Below are positions 3,614-14,651 of a DNA stretch of 14,651 nucleotides, piece by piece; position 1 is the stretch's first letter, and every line of letters starts with the position of its first letter. The notes beneath the pieces were generated by a model. The model worked only from the letters and a program-made list of their open reading frames with translations, was not told where the DNA came from and made no database searches. A program made the translations under genes and the position numbers. Source of the stretch: Candidatus Mcinerneyibacteriota bacterium (GTDB taxonomy: Bacteria; Macinerneyibacteriota; Macinerneyibacteria; Macinerneyibacteriales; DSCS01); contig JAFGWL010000030.1 of the NCBI GenBank assembly GCA_016937175.1, positions 1-14,651 of the forward strand, in the 5' to 3' direction.

Positions 3614-3686
3614 GGGGTCAGGTCTTGATTCATCCAGCACTCAATTCAAATAGTTGAGTGCTGGAACCTGACCCCCTCTATTTTTT
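3614..3686. repeat. GGGGTCAGG-type element that can act as a terminator
   Basis: Two nested stems: GGGGTCAGGT (3614-3623) with ACCTGACCCC (3666-3675), and TCCAGCACTCAA (3633-3644) with TTGAGTGCTGGA (3654-3665), closed by a 9-nt loop. The left strand carries 9 extra unpaired bases. A T-run follows at 3681-3686, so on the plus strand this looks like an intrinsic terminator for the lipoprotein ending at 3573. A partial extra copy of the inner arm (CAGCACTCAATTC) lies just upstream at 3592-3604. Confidence 0.8.
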
Positions 3687-3687
3687 C

Positions 3688-3711
3688 TAATTGCAAGACG
3701 CGCCCTCTCTA
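3688..3711. repeat. Half-element fragment of the GACGCG type at the serpin stop
   Basis: The stretch containing CAAGACGCG and ending in CTCTA matches the right arm of the element at 1254-1284 with a few changes. No left arm is visible. Its tip supplies the TAG stop (3709-3711) of the serpin. Confidence 0.6.
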
Positions 3712-4935
3712 CAGCGACAACACCTTCCCCATAAAGAGGATCATCCCGTTCTTCTCGTCACGGATGACAAAGAAGAAAGGCCTGTCGGCCGTGAAGGTCT
3801 TCGGGGGCTCATAAGCCGACTTCCCGATGGAGATGATGGTGACGGCAGCAGCCTTGGTCCCCTTCTCATCCACTTCGATGACAGCTTTATGGTCCACATA
3901 TTCCACAAAGAGACGGGGGTCATCCATGATGTTCATAAGCGAGCCGGAATAAAAGATCTTCTCCATACCCAAACGCACAAGGGCATCATTCAAACGTTTA
4001 ACGCCATAGCTCATTTTGAATTTCGGAATACCCAGCTCGATCTTTTCCATATACATAGACCCGATGATCGTCTCCCACTTGTCCCGCGTCAGGCCATCGA
4101 GAAACTCATTCAGCCCGAGTCCCTCGCGGGGAAGAAGAATGTACATGGCCGCTTCCCCTTCGCCGTAAGGAAGCTTCACCGCTTTGTACTCCTCTGTCTC
4201 ACGGAAAGCCACAGACATCGTCTGATGCATCATCTGGGCTTTGCCCTTTCTGTTTTTATAATCTGTAAAGACCTCTTCGCGTGTGAATTCGGGGTCGAAC
4301 TCTTTCGCCCAGATTCCCTTAAAGTAGATGGCGTTGATGAGAAACATGATACTCTGGGGGCTGATGTCATGGAGCATAGCGGGGATCATTCTCCGGGTCT
4401 TGTCGCTGATCCATCCGTTGATCTCACCCACAACACTTTTATCGGAGAAGTCTCTTGTGAAGAATTCGGAAAGATAATACTCTTTTAGGGCTTTCTGAAA
4501 ACTCTCATTGGGAACGACACCCAGATGAGCCCAGAGAGAGTTGGCGATACTCAGCTCCACTTTCTCTCCGCCTTTTTCCAAACTCTTTTTCAAAGCCAGT
4601 TGACGCTCATTCAGCTTATCCAGTTCGATTCCCTCATAATAGAGAGTTTCCATCATCTCTGTGCGGGCTTCCCCCGACGCTCCGTTCAGAAGCATAGAGA
4701 GCGCCGTGGAGATGCTGTAGGGAGAGAAAAAGATACTGTTCTCCCGATCCTCCTCCTGTAGGCTTTTGAGCATGTCAAAAGCGAAGCGGTTGTTCCCCTC
4801 GGCAACAGGACACCCGGACTGTTTCAAGGCTTTTGTTTCTTTCGGTTTATCTTTTGAACCCGGTCCGGCTTCACGCCCCATGATCACGCCTGAACAGACA
4901 AGAAGAAAGACTATGGCCACCAATACTTTTTTCAT
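3709..4935 (-). CDS. Secreted serpin (serine protease inhibitor)
   Basis: A 408-residue serpin with an N-terminal Sec signal (MKKVLVAIVFLLVCSGVIMG). Serpin landmarks are in order: NSIFFSPYSISTALSMLLNGA near residue 65, FLINAIYFKGIWAKEFD mid-protein, and a C-terminal reactive-centre loop followed by FTADRPFFFVIRD. The hinge reads GTKAAAVT from residue 359; the small residues needed for loop insertion are present, so it is probably inhibitory. P13 is Lys where Glu is usual. By alignment to antithrombin-type loops, the likely P1-P1' bond is Lys372-Ser373, suggesting trypsin-like target proteases, with a loop about one residue shorter. The start is firm: AAAGGAGG lies just before ATG 4935 and a near-consensus promoter lies upstream. 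The stop codon lies on a repeat fragment. A role in envelope protection against outside proteases is inferred. Confidence 0.93.
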   Translation of the reverse strand: MKKVLVAIVFLLVCSGVIMGREAGPGSKDKPKETKALKQSGCPVAEGNNRFAFDMLKSLQEEDRENSIFFSPYSISTALSMLLNGASGEARTEMMETLYYEGIELDKLNERQLALKKSLEKGGEKVELSIANSLWAHLGVVPNESFQKALKEYYLSEFFTRDFSDKSVVGEINGWISDKTRRMIPAMLHDISPQSIMFLINAIYFKGIWAKEFDPEFTREEVFTDYKNRKGKAQMMHQTMSVAFRETEEYKAVKLPYGEGEAAMYILLPREGLGLNEFLDGLTRDKWETIIGSMYMEKIELGIPKFKMSYGVKRLNDALVRLGMEKIFYSGSLMNIMDDPRLFVEYVDHKAVIEVDEKGTKAAAVTIISIGKSAYEPPKTFTADRPFFFVIRDEKNGMILFMGKVLSL

Positions 4936-7603: not shown

Positions 7604-9004
7604 TCAAATGAAGTCAGCGAAAAATCGCTCCAGAGCATCTTTCCAGTGAGGCAGCGGAAGCAATCCTTTTTCCTCAATTCTTTTCTGTGACAAACGAGAA
7701 TTCAGAGGCCTTTGCGCCAGGGCCGGAATTTCAGAGGTCAGAACGGGTGTGACAGTCACATCCAGTCCGGCTCTTTGAAAAATCGCTCTTGCAAACTCAC
7801 ACCGGCTGCAAAACCCACCGCTAACGCCGTGATAAGTCCCGTAATCAGTTGTCCCGATAAGTGCATAGATAAGACGGGCCAGATCCAACGTATAGGTGGG
7901 GGCGCCTATCTGATCCCTGACCACCGCCACCTCTTTTTTCGTTTCTCCCAACCCAAGCATGGCCTTCACAAAATTCCGCTCTCCTTTTCCATAGAGCCAG
8001 GATGTCCGCACAATAAAGTGCTTTTCCAGCCCTCTGACGATCTCTTCCCCCCGGGCTTTCGTCATCCCGTAAAAATTGACCGGATCCGGAGAGTCATCTT
8101 CCTTCCATGGGGTCTCTCCCTCCCCGTTAAAGACATAGTCTGTACTAATATAGACGAGGGGTAATCGAAACTTTTCAGCTGCCATGACGAGATGTTCAGT
8201 TCCCCTGACATTGATATCGTAACATCGGGATTGCTGTTCTTCAGCCAGGTCCACATCTGTAAAAGCCGCGCAATGAACAATGAGATGGGGGGATTCTTTT
8301 CGTATAATATCATAAATTGGGGCCTGATCTCTGATGTCTCCGTCTTCCTTATCGATTCCTGTAACATGGAGTCCTTCACTTCTGAAGAGTGAGGCCACGG
8401 CTGAACCCAGCTGGCCCCGGGCCCCGGTCACAAGGACTCTCAAAGAAAACTGAGCCCCGCTCTCTCTCAAGAATGGGGCTTTTCGATCTTTATCCGAGAG
8501 AAAAGGATGGCTGAACCCCCAGTCGATTCCTATTTCGGGATCATCGTACCGGATACGCCCCTCCTCCTGAGGAGAATAGGGTTCATCCACCTTGTATTGC
8601 ACCTCTGTATCATCTTCCAATGTGACAAAGCCGTTTGCAAATCCCTTCGGGACAAGAAGCTGTCTCTTATTCTGTGCCGAGAGCTCCATTCCTGTCCACT
8701 TTTTGTAGGTGGGAGATCCTTTTCTGAGATCCACGATGACATTGAAGATCTTCCCCCGGAGACAGCGGACAAGTTTAGTCTGGGCTTTAGGCTCTTTTTG
8801 AAAATGGAGCCCTCTGAGTGTTCCCTTCTGTGCTGAAAAAGAGTGATTGTCCTGGAGAAAATCGAAAAAGAGTCCGGCGGCTTCCCAGGCCGGTTTTGAG
8901 TAGGTCTCAGAAAACCAGCCCCGGCTGTCTTCATAGAGACGGGGCTCGATGACCAAAGCACCGCCAAGCTCTGTTTCCGTAATCTTCAACTCACGTGCTC
9001 TCAT
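7604..9004 (-). CDS. rmlC-rmlD: RmlC-RmlD fusion: dTDP-4-keto-rhamnose 3,5-epimerase and reductase
   Basis: A single 466-codon frame joins two enzymes. Residues 1 to about 185 are RmlC, the cupin 3,5-epimerase: RGLHF with catalytic H67, VPKGFANGF (119-126) and DEPYSP with Y143. From about 188, RmlD begins abruptly with LRVLVTGARGQLG (NADPH-binding G194, G197, G200), then STDYVFNG, FYGMTK (YxxxK) and the C-terminal RPLNSRL typical of the 4-reductase. Together they perform the last two steps to dTDP-L-rhamnose. The linker is short and in frame; there is no sign of a frameshift. Asn replaces the His often seen in GFAHGF. ATG 9004 has a G-rich upstream stretch with GGAGG 12 nt away, which belongs to a duplicated rmlA 3' end. 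Products are expected to feed the rhamnosyl chains made by nearby glycosyltransferases. Confidence 0.93.
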   Translation of the reverse strand: MRARELKITETELGGALVIEPRLYEDSRGWFSETYSKPAWEAAGLFFDFLQDNHSFSAQKGTLRGLHFQKEPKAQTKLVRCLRGKIFNVIVDLRKGSPTYKKWTGMELSAQNKRQLLVPKGFANGFVTLEDDTEVQYKVDEPYSPQEEGRIRYDDPEIGIDWGFSHPFLSDKDRKAPFLRESGAQFSLRVLVTGARGQLGSAVASLFRSEGLHVTGIDKEDGDIRDQAPIYDIIRKESPHLIVHCAAFTDVDLAEEQQSRCYDINVRGTEHLVMAAEKFRLPLVYISTDYVFNGEGETPWKEDDSPDPVNFYGMTKARGEEIVRGLEKHFIVRTSWLYGKGERNFVKAMLGLGETKKEVAVVRDQIGAPTYTLDLARLIYALIGTTDYGTYHGVSGGFCSRCEFARAIFQRAGLDVTVTPVLTSEIPALAQRPLNSRLSQKRIEEKGLLPLPHWKDALERFFADFI

Positions 9005-9039
9005 AACGTATCCCGCCCTCCGCTACTCTTCTCAAATGG
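9000..9039. repeat. 40-bp direct repeat copy A: relic of the rmlA 3' end
   Basis: This matches 9272-9311 at 36 of 40 positions. On the minus strand it encodes HLRRVAEGGIRYE, exactly the RmlA C-terminus, but has no rmlA body upstream. The four differences from copy B are all A-to-G on the coding strand and all at synonymous third positions. This copy now holds the start codon and G-rich ribosome site of rmlCD. Read on, the relic frame would end two codons later (RYEST, then TGA), overlapping the rmlC start. Confidence 0.85.
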
Positions 9040-9271
9040 CAGGGGTCAAGTCCGGCACTCACTTCAAAAAGAGTAGAAGTGAGTGCTGGATTAAAATCTT
9101 TCCCTTCTTATTAAGCGACGACATCAGGAGTCGTCCCGCACTCAAATCATTATTGCTCACGTTAAAAATATGCTCCTCTGCTCTAATTTATCAATAACGC
9201 ACATCGTGGCACTCACCAGTATTTGAGTGCGGTGAACCTGACCCCTACTCGAGTGCTGGACCTGCCCCCTA
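9040..9271. repeat. Composite inverted-repeat element inserted between rmlA and rmlCD
   Basis: About 232 bp with no credible ORF. The left end begins AGGGGTCAAGTCCGGCACTC; the right end, inverted, begins TAGGGGGCAGGTCC and continues AGCACTC. Inside are a 15-bp hairpin with one mismatch (9051-9065 with 9076-9090, loop 10), a small GACGAC/GTCGTC hairpin near 9117-9135, GCACTCA/TGAGTGC (9209-9215 with 9224-9230), and a further CCTGACCCC (9237-9245). It is related to the elements at 3614 and 14612. Its right tip supplies the rmlA stop. The hairpins lie between rmlA and rmlCD and could reduce read-through. Confidence 0.75.
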
Positions 9272-10156
9272 CTCATAACGTATTCCGCCTTCTGCTACTC
9301 TTCTTAAATGGTCTCCGTAAGGCGAGTTCCCGTATCGTTTGGCCGCTTCCAAAAGGGTCTCTTTATCGATCCATTTTTGATTGAAGGCGATCTCTTCAGG
9401 CGCTGAGATCTTTATCCCCTGGCGCTCCTCTATGATTCGCACAAACTCCGCAGCGTCCACCAAAGTATCCACAGAACCGGCATCCATCCAGGTAAATCCG
9501 CGCCCCAGTACCTTCACGTGAAGGTCGCCGTTTTTTAGATAGAGGTTATTCAGGTCGGTGATCTCCAATTCCCCCCGTTTCGAGGGTTTGAGCCTGCGCG
9601 CATGCCCGACCACTGTATGATCGTAAAAGTAGAGGCCCGTAATACAGTAATGGCTTGTGGGTTTTTTTGGCTTCTCTTCGATGGAGAGAACGCGTCCCTC
9701 CCTGTCAAACTCCACGATCCCGAACTTTTCCGGGTCGGGGACAAAATAAGCAAAGATGGTGGCTTTCCCTGACCGGGCTTCCTCCCTGGCCTTACGCAGC
9801 ACGGCTCCAAGTCCGTTACCGTAATGGATATTGTCCCCCAGGATGAGGGCCACGTCATCCTCTCCTATAAAATCAGCACCCAGCAGAAAAGCCTGGGGAA
9901 TCCCGTCGGGAGAGGGCTGCTCCAGATAGGAGAACTCCATGCCGAACTGATGTCCGCTGCCCAGAAGTTTTTTAAAGTTTGGCAGATCATCGGGGGTCGA
10001 GATAATGAGGATCTCCCGGATCCCGGCTAGCATCAGTGTGGAAAGCGGATAATAGATCATGGGCTTGTCATAGACGGGAAGAAGCTGTTTGCTAGTGACA
10101 AGCGTCAGCGGGTAGAGGCGCGTTCCCGTCCCGCCGGCCAGAATGATTCCCTTCAT
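9269..10156 (-). CDS. rmlA: Glucose-1-phosphate thymidylyltransferase RmlA
   Basis: A 295-residue nucleotidyltransferase catalysing glucose-1-phosphate + dTTP to dTDP-glucose, the first step of dTDP-L-rhamnose synthesis. It begins MKGIILAGGTGTRLYPLT (nucleotide-binding signature), followed by KQLLPVYDKPMIYYPLSTLM, ILGDNIHYG (metal-binding Asp) and the C-terminal GFTWMDAGSVDTL, all typical of RmlA. ATG 10156 is chosen because it overlaps the upstream glycosyltransferase stop as ATGA, with AAAGGA before it, which indicates translational coupling; an in-frame ATG at 10174 lies inside that gene. The TAG stop (9269-9271) is the tip of the repeat element, and the final 13 codons are duplicated at 9000-9039. 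The ancestral protein probably ended two residues later. Confidence 0.96.
   Translation of the reverse strand: MKGIILAGGTGTRLYPLTLVTSKQLLPVYDKPMIYYPLSTLMLAGIREILIISTPDDLPNFKKLLGSGHQFGMEFSYLEQPSPDGIPQAFLLGADFIGEDDVALILGDNIHYGNGLGAVLRKAREEARSGKATIFAYFVPDPEKFGIVEFDREGRVLSIEEKPKKPTSHYCITGLYFYDHTVVGHARRLKPSKRGELEITDLNNLYLKNGDLHVKVLGRGFTWMDAGSVDTLVDAAEFVRIIEERQGIKISAPEEIAFNQKWIDKETLLEAAKRYGNSPYGDHLRRVAEGGIRYE
9272..9311. repeat. 40-bp direct repeat copy B: functional rmlA 3' end
   Basis: The partner of 9000-9039. It encodes residues HLRRVAEGGIRYE of the intact RmlA, immediately followed by the TAG at the element tip. Similarity stops sharply on both sides, giving the junctions of the duplication. 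Confidence 0.85.
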
Positions 10157-11004
10157 TTTCCTTTGTGTACCCAATTTTCCCCCTTTGAAATGATATTCCG
10201 AACCACTTTCCCTGTTATCTTGGCCAGGATATTGCCGGCTCTCTTGGTAAAAAGATATTTCTGATATCTCCTGAATTGCGGATAACGTCCGGTAAAGACT
10301 TCAAAACACTCCAGGTTAGACCTTAAGAAATCGGCCCGTTTGGAGAGATTATTCTCGTGGATCCTATAATTGAAAAGCGGCTCTTTTACATAACAGTACC
10401 TTTTTCCCCGACGCTTGTTGAAAAGATCGATATATAAAAAGTAATCATCCCCGCCCCGGGCTTCGGTTTCGATGAGAGGGTCCATCAACTCTTTTTTGAA
10501 AACCAACTGCCCGATGGTCCGCATCATGCTTCCGAACCGGAGCAAAGAATTTCCAGTGAGAAGAGGAAAGTAACAAGAAAAGAGGGGCGTGTAGAAAGTC
10601 CTCGCCTCCCTCCCTGCATGCTGTGTAACGTTGAACAGCACAAGGTCGGCGCCCTCGCTGATCTTTTTTTCCAGAGTAGGATAAAAGCTTTCAGACATCC
10701 AGTCATCATAATCCACAAAGTGGATAAACTCTCCCCGGGCGGCCTCTCTCCCCCTGTTGCGGCTTTTGGCTACCCCCAGGTTTTCCTCATTGTCCAGGAG
10801 GATGATCTCAGGATATTTTTTTGATAAAAAGCTCAGCTCCTCTTCGGGTGAATCATTCACGACGATGATCTCAGCGGCCAGGGAAGAGCGGGCCAGAGAA
10901 GCGAACACAGACTCTAACGTCTGTTCTATGAACTTGCGCCCCTGATAAACGGTGATGACAATACTCAGCTGAAGATGTTTTCCTGAGATGTCCGGTTTCT
11001 CCAC
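10153..11004 (-). CDS. Family 2 glycosyltransferase
   Basis: A 283-residue GT-A inverting glycosyltransferase, first gene of the rml operon. The N-terminal domain starts LSIVITVYQGRKFIEQTLES, with EIIVVNDSPEE for the nucleotide-binding Asp, a DxD-like FVDYDDW and, further on, GGDDYFLYIDLF near the acceptor/catalytic region. The C-terminus is basic (KRAGNILAKITGK), suggesting contact with the inner membrane. Donor and acceptor cannot be read from sequence; coupling to rmlA suggests rhamnosyl or neighbouring sugar transfer. The start is set at GTG 11004: GGGAGG lies just before it, and the promoter at 11033-11061 would initiate near 11026, excluding the longer in-frame ATG at 11061. It overlaps rmlA by 4 nt. 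Confidence 0.88.
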   Translation of the reverse strand: MEKPDISGKHLQLSIVITVYQGRKFIEQTLESVFASLARSSLAAEIIVVNDSPEEELSFLSKKYPEIILLDNEENLGVAKSRNRGREAARGEFIHFVDYDDWMSESFYPTLEKKISEGADLVLFNVTQHAGREARTFYTPLFSCYFPLLTGNSLLRFGSMMRTIGQLVFKKELMDPLIETEARGGDDYFLYIDLFNKRRGKRYCYVKEPLFNYRIHENNLSKRADFLRSNLECFEVFTGRYPQFRRYQKYLFTKRAGNILAKITGKVVRNIISKGENWVHKGK

Positions 11005-11077: not shown

Positions 11078-11599
11078 TCAACGGTTCCCTTTCATACGGT
11101 TTTCAAAATGACGGATCAATTTTGAACTAAGCCAAAAACCCTTTGACTTCATTTGCAGGACGATCTGAATGGCTTCATCAGCGTTTATTAACCCGATTTG
11201 AACACACTCTTCCACTAAAGATAACGTTCCGCTTAGCTTGATCCCTTCCTTTTCGGCACAATTTCGCGCTTTTACATCATCTGTGGCCATAATGTCAGCT
11301 CTGCTGAGCCCTATACACATCATACACGACAGTTCCCCATCCCCCAGGCCTTTCCATCCGGGGATGATTTTGACCGCTTTCTTATATTCCTGAAAGTCCC
11401 TTTCTGAAATCGGAATCAAGGGAATATCGATACTCGAAGAATCAAAAACAAATCCAAACTCATCGAGCACATACTGAGTCACATAATATTCATCCGGGGA
11501 TAATCTCAGTATTTCACTGAACAGAGACATTCGATTGATTCTTTTGAAATTCGAAAGCACCGTGTTGTCTAGAACAATCCTCAATGATCCTGTCCCCAT
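11078..11599 (-). CDS. PIN-like nuclease (DUF3368-type), likely toxin or effector of the XRE/ImmA module
   Basis: A 173-residue PIN-fold protein. It opens with RIVLDNTVLSNF (D11), has an acidic middle position in YVLDEF (E47), then GLGDGELSCM (D87/E89) and ADIMATDDVKARNCAEKEGI with D107/D108, followed by LSGTLSLVE. This order matches the DUF3368 group of PIN-like proteins, whose acidic residues bind metal for RNA cleavage. The ATG at 11599 overlaps the peptidase gene by 19 nt but has a weak ribosome site. An in-frame TTG at codon 6, overlapping the upstream TGA and preceded by AGGA, is a possible alternative. It is the last gene of a tight three-gene operon, so joint action with the XRE and ImmA proteins is likely. 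Activity and target are inferred. Confidence 0.8.
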   Translation of the reverse strand: MGTGSLRIVLDNTVLSNFKRINRMSLFSEILRLSPDEYYVTQYVLDEFGFVFDSSSIDIPLIPISERDFQEYKKAVKIIPGWKGLGDGELSCMMCIGLSRADIMATDDVKARNCAEKEGIKLSGTLSLVEECVQIGLINADEAIQIVLQMKSKGFWLSSKLIRHFENRMKGNR

Positions 11600-12315
11600 A
11601 AATCGATCAACTCAAGAGGATTCATTTTTCTGTTTTGACAGAGTTCAATAAGCTTTCCATAGCTGATATCAGCTTCTGTATACGCTTGTTTCATTTTGTC
11701 TGTAAACTTCAGTACCGGTTCGCGGACTTCCCCGCTGGGCTCATATAAGGAGTAATCGAAATTTTGTTCCGGAAATAGATTCTGAGCTTTTTTAACTATA
11801 TCATGAACCTTTTCAGCCTTATCACTTTTCAAACGATTTTTAAAAAGTGTTGCTATCCTGTTTCTTGCATCCTCGAAACTCACCCGATAATATTGGGAGA
11901 ATCTCAAAACATCAAAATCGGTGAATATTTTCGTATCCCCGAAAACATCATGGCATTCTTCTTCCGGCATAAGGAAACACGCTGCGAAATGATCAGCATC
12001 TCTTTCACGCGTCTGATTCTTACCATCAATATCCCATGATTCCCTCCCCTGATGCAATTCAAAATGGCCCAGTTCATGGGCAAGAGTAAAATTTTGCCTT
12101 CCAAGAGCCTGGGAGGAATTGATAAATATGAACTTGATTCCCTTTTGCATTTTAGCAAAACCGGATATCTTATCCTGTCCCAAAGGGTAATAAAAAAGAT
12201 AAGCCTCATAATGATTTTCGAGGATATCCACAAAAATATCTTTACTGACCGGTCCTGCAAGGTTGAGCTTCTGTCTCAGATCGGCAGCTGCTGAACTGAT
12301 GTCACTTTTTATCAT
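11581..12315 (-). CDS. ImmA/IrrE-family zinc metallopeptidase
   Basis: A 244-residue member of the ImmA/IrrE (COG2856) family. The zinc-binding HELGH is at H80-E81-L82-G83-H84, preceded by NFTLA and followed by ERDADHFAACFLMPEEE with E104 as probable third ligand; this is the canonical layout. Known relatives (ImmA of ICEBs1, IrrE of Deinococcus) cleave a partner XRE-type repressor in response to damage or other signals. The adjacent XRE gene is the obvious candidate partner. The C-terminal 110 residues are unassigned and may sense a signal or contact the nuclease. ATG 12315 follows GAGGAG and overlaps the XRE gene by 14 nt; the 3' end overlaps the PIN gene by 19 nt. Such overlaps indicate co-translation of all three. 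Confidence 0.92.
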   Translation of the reverse strand: MIKSDISSAAADLRQKLNLAGPVSKDIFVDILENHYEAYLFYYPLGQDKISGFAKMQKGIKFIFINSSQALGRQNFTLAHELGHFELHQGRESWDIDGKNQTRERDADHFAACFLMPEEECHDVFGDTKIFTDFDVLRFSQYYRVSFEDARNRIATLFKNRLKSDKAEKVHDIVKKAQNLFPEQNFDYSLYEPSGEVREPVLKFTDKMKQAYTEADISYGKLIELCQNRKMNPLELIDLWGQDH

Positions 12316-12622
12316 GGATCAACTCCTCGAGCAACAAGATATCCTCGATCCATGAACGAAAATCTGGCATTTTTTCAAGAACTTCAGCATCAAGCTTCTC
12401 AAAATCTCTATAAAAATTATTCTCTGCCTCTTCTTCAGGTGAAAATCCGTATAATTGCTCCGGAGAAATATCGTATAGGCGCGAGAGTTTAAAAAGGACA
12501 AGGGGAGTCATCTCCCTTTCCCTGTTCTCAATCAGCGACAGGACAGAGCGGTTAATACCTAAATAATCAGCCACCTCTTGCTGAGTCATATTTTTTTCTT
12601 TGCGTAGTTTAGAAAGATCCAT
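12302..12622 (-). CDS. XRE-family HTH repressor of the three-gene module
   Basis: A 106-residue protein with a Cro/C1-type helix-turn-helix in residues 4-58 (LRKEKNMTQQEVADYLGINR, then SVLSLIENRER as the recognition region). The acidic C-terminal half (about 60-106, rich in Glu and Asp) may mediate dimerisation or contact with the peptidase. It is likely the autorepressor and antitoxin-like component; ImmA-type cleavage would relieve repression. ATG 12622 follows GAGGTG at close spacing, and a near-consensus promoter sits just upstream, with a candidate operator at 12678-12692. By eye the module is more AT-rich than the rml genes, consistent with acquisition. Confidence 0.9.
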   Translation of the reverse strand: MDLSKLRKEKNMTQQEVADYLGINRSVLSLIENREREMTPLVLFKLSRLYDISPEQLYGFSPEEEAENNFYRDFEKLDAEVLEKMPDFRSWIEDILLLEELIHDKK

Positions 12623-14581: not shown

Positions 14582-14611
14582 TGCAGATGAAACAATTTGA
14601 ATGAATCGGAA

Positions 14612-14651
14612 TAGAGGGCAGCCCGGCACTCATCACCGGCACAGGGGTCAG
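14612..14651. repeat. Left end of another GGGGTCAG/GCACTCA element, cut by the window edge
   Basis: It begins TAGAGGGCAGCCCGGCACTC, like the inverted right end of the 9040-9271 element, and reaches CAGGGGTCAG at the edge. The other arm is outside the window. Confidence 0.6.

Follow-up and report, generated by a model that had tools for sequence, protein, structure and literature searches.

The locus analysed here raises the question of how two genes that very probably once overlapped could come to be separated by a repeat element and yet each retain what it needs at the junction. The window, a stretch of 14,651 nucleotides, is the entire contig C43 of the 1.88-Mb host genome G000, and its minus strand encodes a glycosyltransferase, RmlA, an RmlC-RmlD fusion, and RmlB, the last identified from its translation. 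The two genes in question are rmlA (9269-10174, minus strand), encoding glucose-1-phosphate thymidylyltransferase (TIGR01207, 436.8 bits), and the rmlCD fusion (7604-9004, minus strand), encoding an epimerase and a reductase (TIGR01221 and TIGR01214, both above cut-off). The minus strand of the window also encodes a full-length serpin (3709-4935; PF00079, 360 bits), a protease inhibitor of a kind unusual in bacteria, and, within the sugar locus, a cluster (11078-12622) with the appearance of a mobile or stress module, in which an HTH regulator and an IrrE-like metallopeptidase are accompanied by a small DUF3368 protein. Of the 60 nearest genomes searched, only one (G001) is of the same genus as G000 and one of the same order.

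The element between rmlA and rmlCD (9040-9271, minus strand) is 232 bp long, with an uncertainty of several bases at its boundaries, and is predicted to fold as RNA into one large hairpin with REP ends (-88.5 kcal/mol). The full REPIN has its REP head (TAGGGGTCAGGTTC) at 9234-9247 on the minus strand, and the GGGGTCAGGTTC sequence at 9234-9245 has its inverted counterpart, GGACTTGACCCC, at 9042-9053; the latter belongs to the REP tail (9042-9090, minus strand; inverted repeat I1), in which a hairpin with arms at 9051-9065 and 9076-9090 is followed by GGACTTGACCCC. The head is preceded, in tandem, by an additional half-REP of 24 nt (TAGGGGGCAGGTCCAGCACTC..., 9248-9271, minus strand; repeat family D2), the first triplet of which, TAG, serves as the rmlA stop codon. 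On the basis of this structure, we name the element REPIN-type and class it as a REPIN, an inverted pair of REPs whose GGGGTCAGGT ends belong to the RAYT/TIRYT class; no Rfam family matched between 8500 and 9700. The loop of the right hairpin (9063-9079) is complementary to the duplicated target (AAGAGTAG), possibly by chance (p ~0.015 before correction).

On either side of the element lie direct repeats (9000-9039 and 9272-9311) that are identical at 36 of 40 positions, with a start-to-start spacing of 272. Their score of 28 is the highest for any direct repeat in the region, and shuffling the region 300 times never gave a score above 14. The outer copy (9272-9311, minus strand) provides the final 13 codons of rmlA (HLRRVAEGGIRYE) and corresponds to the tail HLRKVAEGKIRY that is conserved in RmlA of relatives, while the inner copy (9000-9039, minus strand) holds the rmlCD ribosome site GGAGGG at 9016-9021 and the start codon at 9002-9004. 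As it stands, rmlA ends HLRRVAEGGIRYE-TAG; read on the gene strand, the element opens with this TAG. When the element is removed in silico, rmlA reads RYEST-TGA and the rmlC ATG falls inside its tail, giving an overlap of 14 nt. These results bear out most of what an initial annotation of the locus had described, namely a 232-bp element between 40-bp direct repeats, an inner copy carrying the rmlCD start codon and ribosome site, and a joined rmlA ending in RYEST-TGA across the rmlC ATG. Its statement that the outer copy completes rmlA holds for the last 13 codons but not for the stop, which is supplied by the element.

The evidence for an ancestral overlap comes from distant relatives. In the closest of these, RmlA ends HLRKVAEGKIRY-stop, which identifies the outer copy as the conserved RmlA tail. 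At many distant-relative loci, the start of rmlC falls inside the tail of rmlA or just a few bases beyond it, so that overlapping or abutting junctions are common. Two loci with abutting or overlapping genes, L172 and L133, have the rmlC ribosome site within the rmlA tail, and the anti-Shine-Dalgarno duplexes predicted there (-10.4 and -10.1, respectively) resemble that of the inner copy (-10.0 kcal/mol) and are stronger than that of the outer copy (-8.1 kcal/mol). A search for an element-free allele in the 60 nearest genomes and a contig scan gave nothing closer than ~70% at RmlA; a close rmlA is absent from G001, the only same-genus genome, and a scan of 84,980 species did not reveal a near relative of RmlCD. 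We therefore infer, from the junctions of distant relatives and with no empty allele found, a strong case that rmlA and rmlC overlapped before the insertion. The initial annotation had proposed the same, and the prevalence of overlapping or abutting junctions agrees with it, but the uninterrupted allele that it anticipated did not turn up.

The four differences between the copies all fall at third codon positions of rmlA and are all synonymous, with A in the outer copy and G in the inner; the chance that four randomly placed differences would all hit those positions is 0.011. Owing to these A/G differences, the GGAGG core is absent from the outer copy. This pattern fits a division of labor after duplication, although the direction of change is unproven. 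A third copy of the 40-mer was not found in the G000 genome, and there is no copy at all in the two nearest relatives; a donor elsewhere in G000 as the source of the inner copy was rejected on the former ground. A diversity-generating retroelement acting by A-to-N substitution, considered because all differences are A/G, was rejected by judgement, as there are only four transitions and all are synonymous.

The REP family to which the element belongs is dispersed in G000, at about six sites (C1:416, C19:1, and C43 2351, 3614, 9040, and 14608), and the motif also occurs in G001, which supports reading the element as a mobile repeat of REP type, as implied in the initial annotation. This copy number is low compared to classic REPs. 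Four of the approximately six detectable sites share the 14.6-kb contig of the window, which itself ends inside one. Two of these are further REPINs (2351-2418 and 3614-3675), and the last (14608-14651), read by eye, is the start of a REP array with a similar layout of half-REP and head that is cut by the contig end and hence is not matched by the motif scans. A second copy of the element, 81% identical, lies at G000:C19:1-155, where it is truncated by the start of the contig next to a gene that reads as NusG-like. At the syntenic place, beside sequence common to both genomes, G001 carries a related REPIN array. The arrays at this shared locus (L004 in G001:C59 and L002 in G000:C19) differ between the two species in their left halves, as would be seen if part of one REPIN had been replaced by another. 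G001 also encodes two genes with the IS200-type Y1 transposase domain (PF01797), and one of the RAYT units, at G001:C31:8885-10286, is bounded by the REP motif of the window element: its GGGGTCAGGTCTTG inverted ends are terminal repeats of the GGGGWSAS type found in TIRYTs, around a Y1 unit. No match to PF01797 was obtained in the G000 assembly, which is 98.7% complete, and thus no RAYT with the same REP ends was found in the genome that holds the REPs; an assembly gap or loss may account for this. Flanking duplications were not significant at the REPINs at 2351-2418 and 3614-3675, at the C1 site, or at the two G001 RAYT units. A candidate 6-bp duplication, CTCGAG, at a G001 RAYT unit was rejected, as CTCGAGTAGGGG belongs to the inverted repeat and recurs inside the window element. 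Comparison of contig ends for a shared REP-adjacent flank yielded no comparable pair, since only the C19 start and the C43 end finish in REPs.

To place the 40-bp repeats in a wider context, left and right flanks were compared at 66 distinct REPIN sites, which represent two types of REP sequence and were drawn from 386 genomes and from viral contigs. With a score threshold of 9 or more, which was set after the scores had been seen, flanking direct repeats were present at 5 of 66 sites, the window included, versus 17 of 4290 mismatched pairings (0.4%; binomial P 7e-6). The binomial P is 1.4e-4 without the window site and 2e-3 when two sites on the same contig are counted once. The motifs used were near-exact, so eroded elements are under-represented and 5/66 is a rough rate. 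The five sites represent two REP subfamilies on four contigs, and the repeats are 36/40 at the window, 18/18 at L343:1871, 11/11 at L343:5066, 11/11 at L480:2995, and 12/13 at L479:14425. Lengths thus vary from 11 to 40 bp, including 18 and 11 on the same contig, with a few filler bases, and a target-site duplication of fixed length is not what these sites present. At L343:5066, the repeat can be extended by eye to 13/14, with a reading frame left open by the REPIN. A search for an empty site corresponding to L343:1871 gave 16-mer matches that were chance-like and no relative. L343 (1-7381; IMGVR_UViG_3300029286_003067) is phage-like and carries five REPINs in 7.4 kb, one of them in-frame within an ORF and two with duplicated flanks, and at L480 (11121-11370), a gene tail of ~100 nt is repeated beside a second REPIN. 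The remaining 61 sites, other REPINs of G000 among them, had no flanking repeats. Judged from these flanks, duplication at REPINs is neither chance nor an obligatory signature. As the other G000 REPINs with two readable flanks show none, it is also not the normal insertion signature of the window's own family. The initial annotation had regarded 40 bp as unusually long for this class of element, which is in keeping with the 61 of 66 sites that lack any duplication; its expectation that other copies would have duplicated flanks was realized at four further REPIN sites elsewhere but at none of the other REPINs of G000.

The reading we prefer, to which we assign roughly an even chance of being correct, is that insertion of the REPIN at the rmlA/rmlC overlap recopied 40 bp of the target in one step. 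A GGGGTCAGG-class (RAYT/TIRYT) REPIN would have entered at the point where the genes overlapped. Replication or repair would have switched template, leaving the target at GAG, with which the element also starts, copied the REPIN, and then re-entered the target 40 bp upstream, producing the duplication in a single step. The outcome would have been retained by selection, as an insertion here with nothing duplicated would leave rmlC severed from its start codon, and the copies would later have divided their roles, with the protein code kept by the outer and the ribosome site by the inner. Such a switch is possible because target and element have GAG in common at the outer junction, a microhomology of only 3 bases. 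The variable length of the repeats among the surveyed sites, together with the few filler bases, favors copying or repair over a fixed staggered cut. Counting against the copying model are the lack of an empty allele, the absence of duplications at the other REPINs of G000 and at the G001 RAYT units, and the shortness of GAG. According to the initial annotation, insertion had duplicated precisely the sequence required by each gene. The stretch does contain both, but this is best explained by survivorship, as only such an outcome leaves rmlC its start codon, and it need not reflect the mechanism, given that other REPINs of G000 lack duplications.

A true target-site duplication, in which a transposase or host nuclease nicks the strands 40 bp apart and the element joins the overhangs before fill-in, would agree with repeats that, at either end, are no more than 2 bases away from the REP core and with the existence of other REPINs with flanking duplications. 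We nevertheless consider it unlikely, because 61 of 66 sites lack a duplication, because the lengths are unequal between sites, even on one contig, and because relatives in the IS200/IS605 group produce no larger duplications (Nunvar et al., PMC2817692). It is still more doubtful that the junction first underwent a 40-bp tandem duplication, with the REPIN inserted between the copies later: joining the copies by eye indicates that such an intermediate would be viable, with rmlC intact and a short extra tail on rmlA, but this history requires two events and an insertion within ~2 bp of the copy boundary. Homologous exchange between diverged alleles, for instance with an acquired rml cluster, would place the rmlA tail of one upstream of the rmlC of the other, with the REPIN at the seam. 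The copies differ at synonymous sites only, as two coding alleles would, and the lack of a close rmlA in G001 means that the rml cluster may have been acquired, but no second rml allele and no third 40-mer copy were found, and one allele must already have held a REPIN at the same point, which makes this exchange improbable. The reading of the locus is based on a single site in one assembly without reads, and the roles of template switching, staggered-break fill-in, and recombination are not separable from one locus.

The mechanism by which REPs disseminate is reported as unknown (PMC8266576), and duplicated flanks offer a rare hint of how REPs and REPINs insert. We tentatively propose, as a generalization that is more apt to fail than to hold, that GGGGTCAGG/TIRYT REPINs spread by copying, through template switching or target-primed synthesis, leaving target duplications of variable length that at most sites decay or become deleted and persist where they rescued a gene junction. 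A fossil insertion kept by the need of two genes, along with a few other examples, suggests that insertion footprints might usefully be sought at essential gene junctions, as selection preserves them there. The locus may also illustrate a route for separating overlapping genes, by which a stretch that served as both coding sequence and ribosome site is doubled, leaving each copy a single role.

The window element shares features with several known systems. REPINs are mobilized in trans by RAYTs in Pseudomonas fluorescens SBW25, and, in the accessible part of that account, they resemble the window element in having two inverted REPs and one hairpin, with nested insertions and tandem clusters that can include flanking sequence, and differ in their REP sequence and in excisions that leave ~6 bp of REP; a long flanking duplication is not described in this part (Bertels and Rainey 2011, PMC3116915). 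The terminal repeats of TIRYTs and TIRs have the motif GGGGWSAS in common, which GGGGTCAG fits and which the ends of the G001 RAYT unit also display; as far as the accessible text of that paper goes, it does not describe target duplication (Di Nocera et al. 2013, PMC3733652). The Y1 transposase domain (PF01797) of the G001 RAYT is shared with the single-strand transposons of the IS200/IS605 group, which generate no larger target duplications (PMC2817692), unlike the 40 bp at the window REPIN. BIMEs have captured the 3' ends of rayt genes (Nunvar et al. 2010, PMC2817692), and a gene tail copied beside REPs, as at the window and at L480:11121-11370, is similar to this, with the difference that the tail copied at the window restores a functional gene junction.
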